NCBI GenBank assembly: GCA_027339055.1
Contig: DAHWRK010000002.1
Coordinates: forward strand, 19,263-83,262
Direction: 5' to 3'
Length of the DNA stretch: 64,000 bases
Source: Microcaldota archaeon
Lineage (GTDB): Archaea; Micrarchaeota; Micrarchaeia; Micrarchaeales; Micrarchaeaceae
Position numbers and translations under genes: made by a program. Positions 50,044-54,778 of the stretch are shown here, one piece after another. Each line of letters starts with the position of its first letter. The stretch's first letter is position 1. The notes under the pieces were generated by a model. It made no database searches. It saw only the letters and a program-made list of their open reading frames with translations, and was not told the DNA's origin.

Positions 50044-50183
50044 GGGGTTGTGGCGTAACTTGGCAGCGCAGCAGGCTCCAGATGTTTAACTTGAAATGAG
50101 CCCAAAAGGCAATGATGATGATCTGGAAAGCAGACTAAATATGAAGTAACCTGCTGGTCCGGGTTCAAATCCCGGCAACCCCA
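50044..50183 (+). tRNA. tRNA-Trp(CCA) with a 67-nt intron (50082-50148) carrying a C/D-box-like guide
   Basis: Acceptor GGGGTTG/CAACCCC, anticodon stem GCAGG/CCTGC, loop C-U-CCA-G|intron|A; mature 73 nt. Confidence 0.9.
50112..50134 (+). ncRNA. Intron-encoded C/D-like guide element: C box ATGATGA, 12-nt guide TGATCTGGAAAG, D-like CAGA
   Basis: Guide complements pre-tRNA-Trp TCCAGAT; the D+5 position (G) pairs with C34. Confidence 0.5.
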
Positions 50184-52740: not shown

Positions 52741-53508
52741 TTGGACTACCACAAAGTAAAAATTGTTGTTACTGACCTCGATGGAACGCTTGCGCCTAGC
52801 AAAGCCCAGATGGACGACGAAATGTCAAAAATAATCTGCGGGCTTCTTTCAACAAAGGCCATGGCAGTAGTCGGAGGAGGTTTCTATTCCCAGTTCCAGA
52901 AGCAGCTCATAGGAGCTCTTAAATGCCCAGCAGAAAACCTCAGCATGCTCTACCTATTTCCCACCAACGCAACTGCATTCTATAAGTTCTCGGGTTCCGA
53001 ATGGCAAAAGGTTTATTCCGAAGACCTTTCGGAAGAGCAGAAAAGGCTCGTTTATTCAGCTTTTCCCAAAGCGCTCGAACTTGCAGGTTTTAAAAATCCC
53101 GAAAAGCTCTACGGCAACCAGCTTGAGGACCGCGGCACGCAGATAACATTCTCGGCTCTTGGGCAGGAAGCACCATTGGAGCTTAAATCGGCATGGGATC
53201 CTGACCAGAAGAAGCGCATGGCCATAAAACAGCAGCTTGATAAATTGCTCAACGGCTTTGAAATAAGGCTCGGAGGTACAACTTCAATAGACATAACAAA
53301 AGCAGGAATAGACAAGGCCTATGCAATAAGCAAAATTACAGAAATATTCGGGTATTCCAAGCAGGAAATGGTGTTCATAGGCGATGCGCTGTACGAAGGC
53401 GGAAACGACTACGCGGTCAAGCTTGCAGGGGTAGAAAGCATATTGACTTCAGGTCCTGAAGAGACAAAGTCACTGCTTAGGGGTATAATCCGCTCAAGCC
53501 AGCCATGA
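52741..53508 (+). CDS. HAD-superfamily hydrolase (phosphomannomutase-like), TTG start
   Basis: VVTDLDGTLAPSKAQMD; GTTSIDITKAGIDKAYAI; FIGDALYEGGNDYAV. Confidence 0.87.
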   Translation: MDYHKVKIVVTDLDGTLAPSKAQMDDEMSKIICGLLSTKAMAVVGGGFYSQFQKQLIGALKCPAENLSMLYLFPTNATAFYKFSGSEWQKVYSEDLSEEQKRLVYSAFPKALELAGFKNPEKLYGNQLEDRGTQITFSALGQEAPLELKSAWDPDQKKRMAIKQQLDKLLNGFEIRLGGTTSIDITKAGIDKAYAISKITEIFGYSKQEMVFIGDALYEGGNDYAVKLAGVESILTSGPEETKSLLRGIIRSSQP

Positions 53509-53558
53509 GTTCATCCCAAACGGGCCATCACATTCTTTAAGCGCCAACAGTTGCAGTT

Positions 53559-53607
53559 TCAGCAGACTCTCTTCTCATCATGAGTCAGAAATACCTCGTA
53601 TCATCAC
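53559..53607 (-). ncRNA. C/D box sRNA with two 12-nt guides, in the 3' UTR of citrate synthase
   Basis: 5'-GTGATGA-TACGAGGTATTT-CTGA-CTC-ATGATGA-GAAGAGAGTCTG-CTGA-3': consensus C, D', C', D, two 12-nt guides, 3-nt spacer; flanking GTTT/AAAC stem. Confidence 0.9.
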
Positions 53608-53617
53608 AAACGTGCAA

Positions 53618-54778
53618 TCATTTTCTTTGGTCCAAAGGAACGTATGGTATGTCAAGCTGTCCGTTATAATAGTCCAAAGGCCTTATCAGCCTGTTGTCCT
53701 GCCAGTACTCAAGCATATGCGCGCACCACCCTGGAGACCTGCTAGCTGCAAAAAGCGGGGTAAACAGCTCTTTTGGTATGCCTATGTAGGTGTACACCGG
53801 TCCGGAAAAGAAATCAACATTGGGCCATATCCCCTTCGTCTCTCCTAGCTTTTCAACCATCATCTTTTCGGCCCGCAGGGCTATTGCGGTAAGCGTTTGC
53901 ACTTCCATCGTCGAGCCGTTCTGTATGTCCTCCAAATAGGTCTTTATTACCTTGGCCCTTGGGTCGTAAGCCTTGTAAACTCTGTGCCCGAAGCCCATTA
54001 TCCTTTTCTTTCCTTCCAACGCCTCTTCGATGTATTTTTCGGTGTTGTCTGGATTGCCAATGGCTCTCATCATGTCAAGGGCTTTTTCGTCGGCTCCTCC
54101 ATGCAACGGCCCTTTCAATGCGCATATGCCCGCAGTAATTGCGGAGTATATATCAGCTAGTGTTGATCCCGCAACGATTGTGCAAAACGTGGATGCGTTG
54201 GAGCTGTGCTCTGCATGAAGCAACATCATTACGTCAAGCATCTTGGCTACTTTGTCCTCTGCCTTTTTGCCTGTCATCATGTACAGTATATTCTGCGCAA
54301 CTCCTAAGGATTGGTCCGGAGCCGCGTATTCCCTCCCAGATTTAAGCCGTCCCATTAATGCCACAATGCCGCATATCCTTCCTATTATCTCTGCGCTTTC
54401 CTCGAGTTTTTCTTCGGCGTCACTCTGATAGACTTTCTTCGCCGCAAATGCTGGCAAGGAAGAAACTGCAGACCGTAGCACATCCATAGGTAGCATGTTC
54501 GTGCTCAAAGTTTTTACCAACCCGATTATTCCGCTGTCAAGGTTCATGTATGATACGAGCTTCATAATGAATTCCGAAAGCGCTTTGGCATTCGGCAGGG
54601 AACCATAAAGTATGAGATACGAAACCTCCTCAAAAGATGAATTTTTTGCCAGGCTTTCTATAGAATAGCCCCTATACCAAAGCCTTCCCTTTGAACCGTC
54701 AACCTTGCATATTTTTGTTTCTGTAAAATAGACTCCTTCAAGCCCTTTGATTATTGTAGGAGTTGCATTATCTGCCAT
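53618..54778 (-). CDS. gltA: Citrate synthase
   Basis: GLEGVYFTETKICKVDG…LWYRGYSIE; LHAEHSSNASTF; GPLHGGADEKAL; MGFGHRVYKAYDPRA. Confidence 0.95.
   Translation of the reverse strand: MADNATPTIIKGLEGVYFTETKICKVDGSKGRLWYRGYSIESLAKNSSFEEVSYLILYGSLPNAKALSEFIMKLVSYMNLDSGIIGLVKTLSTNMLPMDVLRSAVSSLPAFAAKKVYQSDAEEKLEESAEIIGRICGIVALMGRLKSGREYAAPDQSLGVAQNILYMMTGKKAEDKVAKMLDVMMLLHAEHSSNASTFCTIVAGSTLADIYSAITAGICALKGPLHGGADEKALDMMRAIGNPDNTEKYIEEALEGKKRIMGFGHRVYKAYDPRAKVIKTYLEDIQNGSTMEVQTLTAIALRAEKMMVEKLGETKGIWPNVDFFSGPVYTYIGIPKELFTPLFAASRSPGWCAHMLEYWQDNRLIRPLDYYNGQLDIPYVPLDQRK

Follow-up and report, generated by a model that had tools for sequence, protein, structure and literature searches.

A predicted double-guide C/D box sRNA following the citrate synthase gene in a Micrarchaeota genus, with putative methylation sites in and next to helix 69 of 23S rRNA

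Between the end of the citrate synthase coding region and a convergent hydrolase gene, the genome of a Micrarchaeota archaeon carries a short segment with motifs reminiscent of C/D box guide RNAs. This raises the question of whether the segment specifies a guide, which nucleotides the guide would modify, and from which transcript it would be obtained. The window analysed here is the whole 64,000-nt stretch of contig DAHWRK010000002.1 that contains this locus. The initial annotation had described four consensus boxes and two 12-nt guides on the minus strand, a layout that proved exact: C (RUGAUGA), D' (CUGA), C' and D occur in this order, at archaeal spacing and all four perfect, as GTGATGA-TACGAGGTATTT-CTGA-CTC-ATGATGA-GAAGAGAGTCTG-CTGA followed by AACTGCAA, where CTC is the spacer between the D' and C' boxes. 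Both guides (C to D' and C' to D) are 12 nt long, in the 10-12 nt range of such guides. The elements of the locus are as follows.

53618-54778, minus: citrate synthase gene, the presumed host transcript (TIGR01800, 431.9 bits, E 1.6e-129, above the cut-off)
53608-53617, minus: 5' arm of the terminal stem, TTGCACGTTT (pairs with 53551-53559)
53559-53607, minus: core of the double-guide C/D box sRNA, from C box to D box, 49 nt (sequence; a conserved unit across many genomes and contexts)
53601-53607, minus: C box GTGATGA (consensus RTGATGA in an alignment of 58 homologues)
53589-53600, minus: D' guide TACGAGGTATTT (23S pairing)
53585-53588, minus: D' box CTGA (sequence and homologue alignment)
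53575-53581, minus: C' box ATGATGA (sequence and homologue alignment)
53563-53574, minus: D guide GAAGAGAGTCTG (23S pairing)
53559-53562, minus: D box CTGA (sequence and homologue alignment)
53551-53559, minus: 3' arm of the terminal stem, AAACTGCAA, sharing the last A of the D box (pairing; homologue comparison)
52741-53508, plus: convergent HAD-IIB hydrolase gene, a neighbour that bounds the 3' side of the sRNA 50 nt away and is no part of it

The citrate synthase stop codon (TGA, 53620-53618) is separated from the C box by the 10-nt TTGCACGTTT, which confirms on the minus strand the distance first reported. A terminal stem of 9 bp with one bulged nucleotide, TTGCA(C)GTTT/AAACTGCAA, encloses the sRNA. 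The GTTT/AAAC flank noted earlier is thus real as the inner part of this stem, although its AAAC borrows the last A of the D box. Comparison of the sRNA flanks with those of sister species showed that the pairing is kept through two-sided changes, and the real flank pairs of the homologues bound better than swapped ones (mean -3.40 versus -2.57, sd 0.18). The single-strand folding energy of the sRNA was uninformative (z 0.5-0.8), as is expected of C/D RNAs.

With a completeness of 54%, the assembly to which the window belongs contains no 23S gene; the targets were therefore read from relatives. Searching rRNA for complements to both guides, the check originally proposed for this locus, revealed that both match a single 23S stretch, GTAACTCTGACTCTCTTGAGGTAGCGTAATACCTCGTC, at sites that in the closest relative lie 20 nt apart, one in helix 69 and the other on the strand just 3' of it. 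One of the two outcomes that the annotation had named as refuting, the absence of any rRNA complement, thus did not arise. In the same-genus genomes G002 and G004, the D' guide forms 10 contiguous Watson-Crick pairs (guide positions 2-11) with UAAUACCUCGUC, and the D guide forms only 9 contiguous pairs (positions 3-11) with CUGACUCUCUUG in helix 69. Archaeal guides are 10-12 nt long and direct methylation to the nucleotide paired with their fifth position (PMC7994747), and efficient guide duplexes are 8-10 bp long (PMC7089733). The fifth-position pairs in G002 and G004 are U-A for the D' guide and G-C for the D guide, and alignment to E. coli MG1655 rrlH places these nucleotides at 1940 and C1920; in the 23S of G002 they are positions 1932 and 1912, respectively. 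Position 1940 is A in the 23S of the Micrarchaeota relatives and U in E. coli. The initial annotation had thus named the right modified bases, an A and a C; the target sequences it gave have to be replaced by UAAUACCUCGUC and CUGACUCUCUUG, the outermost guide nucleotides not all being paired. On sequence grounds, the D guide is predicted to direct 2'-O-methylation of the C equivalent to E. coli C1920, and the D' guide that of the A at E. coli position 1940.

Among 200,000 guide shuffles, single matches arose in 0.17% and 0.53% of cases, and both together within 40 nt in none. Double guides are defined by targets within 100 nt (PMC4644070); here both sites lie 20 nt apart in one rRNA, each with at least 9 bp (10 and 9 pairs). 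Helices 68-71, moreover, are a hotspot of archaeal methylation (PMC4644070). Targets in 16S rRNA were also considered and rejected, the best alignments of both guides carrying mismatches and wobbles.

The reading we prefer, with a probability of roughly 0.9, is that of an mRNA-derived double-guide sRNA that would direct methylation of 23S rRNA at C1920 and A1940. Expression, maturation and function of the sRNA are inferred as follows. Transcription of citrate synthase would yield an mRNA that includes the sRNA; L7Ae, Nop5 and fibrillarin would bind the C/D and C'/D' motifs, assembling into an RNP that protects the sRNA, which would be trimmed out of the 3'-UTR. The sRNA would pair with 23S rRNA in helix 69 and, 20 nt away, on the strand that follows this helix. 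Fibrillarin would then 2'-O-methylate the C at 1920 through the D guide and the A at 1940 through the D' guide (E. coli numbering). Fibrillarin is encoded in the window's genome and in its relatives; Nop5 was found in 11 of 13 genomes, the window's own incomplete assembly not being among them.

When the sRNA was searched together with its flanks at the DNA level, only the 48-nt core was matched (80-90% identity); the many genomes concerned belong to the same family and to a sister family within the order, and their copies do not lie next to citrate synthase. The sequence model, built from 58 distinct homologues, recovered the core at G000:C22:72821-72869 (window 53559-53607); of 301 genomes from the phylum, 162 gave a match to it at E<=0.01. 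Matches with E below about 1e-8 came almost exclusively from one Micrarchaeota order, whereas those in other families are weaker and possibly due only to the boxes. Named contigs with homologues were almost all from Micrarchaeota, the few bacterial matches being seemingly due to chance; L137, the complete chromosome of 'Candidatus Micrarchaeum sp. A_DKE', shares both core and flanks with G002, a member of the window's genus. Among the alignment columns that never vary are the boxes and, within the D' guide, GAGGTATTT; the latter stretch was imposed by one homologue-search pattern, albeit not by the DNA search or the sequence-model search. The neighbourhoods of the sRNA differ widely across the order, and the placement in a 3'-UTR is specific to the window's genus.

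Several genomes have lost or altered the sRNA. Genome G021 has no recognisable copy, and its helix 69 is rewritten, with TCTAACTCTGAGACTCTTTAGG instead of AGTAACTCTGACTCTCTTTAGG. Its sister G019, of the same genus (g13), keeps the D' guide and has an unrelated D guide, AAAAACTTCGTGT, for which no convincing rRNA target was found in the sequences at hand. In G005, which belongs to the window's genus, a decayed copy lies at the same position of the citrate synthase 3'-UTR (L239/L007, G005:C6:155906-155949), with three of the four boxes (D', C' and D) damaged; no other copy was found in this genome. G010 and G015 have no recognisable copy and an intact target. Given the missing or decayed copies in G021, G005, G010 and G015, the guide, although widely kept, is dispensable. 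For the preferred reading, the joint change of guide and target in G021 is a point in favour; the intact targets of G010 and G015, the decayed G005 copy, the D duplex of just nine pairs and the reading of the targets from relatives are points against it.

The register of the D guide was variable as well. Among 71 distinct loci it pointed to C1920 in 25 and was one nucleotide off, predicting U1921, in 36; the remaining 10 lacked the AGTC motif. At least three register changes are needed on a 16S tree of 15 labelled genomes. The D' register (A1940) seems fixed in all listed homologues, although part of this was imposed by the search pattern. It is possible, and we put it forward tentatively, that throughout the order orthologous sRNAs clamp the same helix 69-71 stretch while the D register slips, so that close species would carry either Cm1920 or Um1921. 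If true, this would provide a natural series in which selection in helix 69 preserves the local binding itself more strongly than the precise site of methylation.

These observations bear on the alternative that survives best, namely that the sRNA is real but acts chiefly as an rRNA folding chaperone, clamping segments of helices 69-71 during assembly, with the exact methylated nucleotide being of minor importance. Such a role has been proposed for double guides (PMC4644070), both guides here bind one continuous 23S stretch, and binding persists while the D register alternates between C1920 and U1921. The seemingly fixed D' register points the other way, with the reservation about the search pattern made above, and binding and methylation are compatible rather than mutually exclusive. 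We consider it unlikely, if well worth keeping in mind, that chaperoning is the main function.

As for the origin of the transcript, the C box follows the citrate synthase stop codon after 10-11 nt in the window's genus. None of six distinct members of this genus had a TATA-like element in the interval 25-40 nt upstream, versus 28 of 66 homologues elsewhere (seven of 66 in a control interval). A tRNA-Gln gene was found upstream on the same strand in 18 of 91 sRNA loci; in nine loci it adjoins the sRNA, which starts 3-21 nt after it. A scan for bacterial-type promoters and terminators around the sRNA yielded nothing relevant. Processing from the citrate synthase mRNA, as first suggested, is well supported by this genomic context, since the genus lacks a TATA-like element that many homologues elsewhere possess. 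Most published archaeal C/D sRNAs have no promoter of their own but are cut from longer transcripts, and they commonly depend on a neighbouring gene (PMC7994747). The simplest history would be a move of the sRNA gene, in this genus, to a place beside citrate synthase, whose promoter it would now use. The alternative, that the sRNA is not processed from the mRNA but has a promoter of its own within the last part of the citrate synthase coding region, could draw on the frequency of the TATA-like element among the homologues elsewhere. In the window's genus, however, the corresponding interval is coding sequence, and both the lack of the element there and the published archaeal examples speak against such a promoter, which we regard as improbable.

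A further possibility is that the element is no guide RNA at all, but a cis-acting kink-turn in the 3'-UTR that is bound by L7Ae and regulates citrate synthase. The element does lie directly after the stop codon, and archaeal L7Ae is known to bind kink-turns in mRNAs (PMC5539422). It is kept in other genomes away from citrate synthase, however, its guides are conserved along with its boxes, both guides match 23S rRNA, and G005 has lost the element from the same citrate synthase UTR; a purely regulatory kink-turn is thus very improbable. Finally, although the boxes are short and 64 kb were scanned by eye, a chance resemblance is already refuted by the conservation of the sRNA across contexts, in addition to the paired guide targets in 23S, the mere 3.3e-5 perfect C-D'-C'-D sets at archaeal spacing expected per 64-kb window, and the dozens of matches to the C-D'-C' pattern in 41 related genomes versus none for the reversed control.

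In the window's genus, the sRNA was the sole strict match to the C-D'-C' pattern, and no further box set occurred within the window even when two mismatches were allowed. The best Rfam matches over the whole core were all C/D families, sR2 (RF01139, E 8e-5) and snoPyro_CD (RF00095, E 0.003), with scores below the gathering thresholds (29.0 versus 42 bits and 24.7 versus 45 bits, respectively); the boxes agree with those of these two families, whereas the guides differ. A tandem interspaced guide RNA (TIGR) array, which requires several tandem units, was rejected, since the locus contains a single unit and the window no second box set. Boxes, conservation and paired 23S targets thus bear out the identity as a C/D box guide sRNA originally assigned. 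The feature is a C/D box sRNA of the archaeal double-guide type. RNAs of this kind are commonplace and well known, the lineage itself little studied; new here are the guide sequences and target sites in Micrarchaeota. In the literature collection searched, no paper mentioned both Micrarchaeota and box sRNAs.

The sRNA resembles known archaeal double guides in its four boxes, its guide lengths (10-12 nt), its two rRNA targets within 100 nt, its site in the helix 68-71 hotspot and its presumed dependence on a neighbouring gene for transcription; it differs from them in its guides and sites, which are new, and in a D-guide register that slips by one nucleotide between species. Helix 69 is also 2'-O-methylated under C/D guidance in haloarchaea and other archaea (Gm at E. 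coli position 1909, PMC2584109), albeit at a different nucleotide, ~11 nt upstream of C1920. The very nucleotide predicted for the D guide, C1920, is 2'-O-methylated in bacteria by TlyA/Cj0588 (PMC5778110), a stand-alone protein enzyme that works without a guide RNA. The homologues adjoining tRNA-Gln resemble tRNA-sRNA dicistrons such as that of N. equitans, in which sRNA8 follows tRNA-Val (PMC3491384), whereas the presumed host in the window's genus is the citrate synthase mRNA. In this family, one orthologous guide moves from one setting to another (behind a TATA-like promoter, in the trailer of a tRNA-Gln, in the 3'-UTR of an mRNA) and slips in register at one target. The small-genome Micrarchaeota thereby gain a C/D guide that is conserved and open to testing, and whose two methylation sites, predicted to the nucleotide, lie at the subunit interface; one of the two is the site of the bacterial protein TlyA.

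Other RNAs were noticed during this analysis. A second conserved C/D sRNA, with a nearly invariant D guide, GATCTTGAGTG, and a variable D' guide, was present in relatives (L208, L209, L212, L214-L217, L223, L225, L228 and L230, around position 1500), in many cases shortly before a possible start codon. A third C/D-like family, AGAGTAACTG-CTGA ... TCTATATCGG-CTGA, was seen in G019, G015 and G021 (L206, L238 and L242). Neither of the two was found when looked for in the window. At the gathering level, an Rfam search of the window returned tRNAs only, among them a 140-nt match at 50044-50183 (plus strand) that ARAGORN missed in bacterial mode and that is probably a tRNA with an intron. The 16S gene of the window's genome (L001, G000:C11:2798-4800) spans 2003 nt versus 1478 positions in the model, which implies an insert of ~0.5 kb, possibly an intron; several relatives likewise show an oversized 16S gene.
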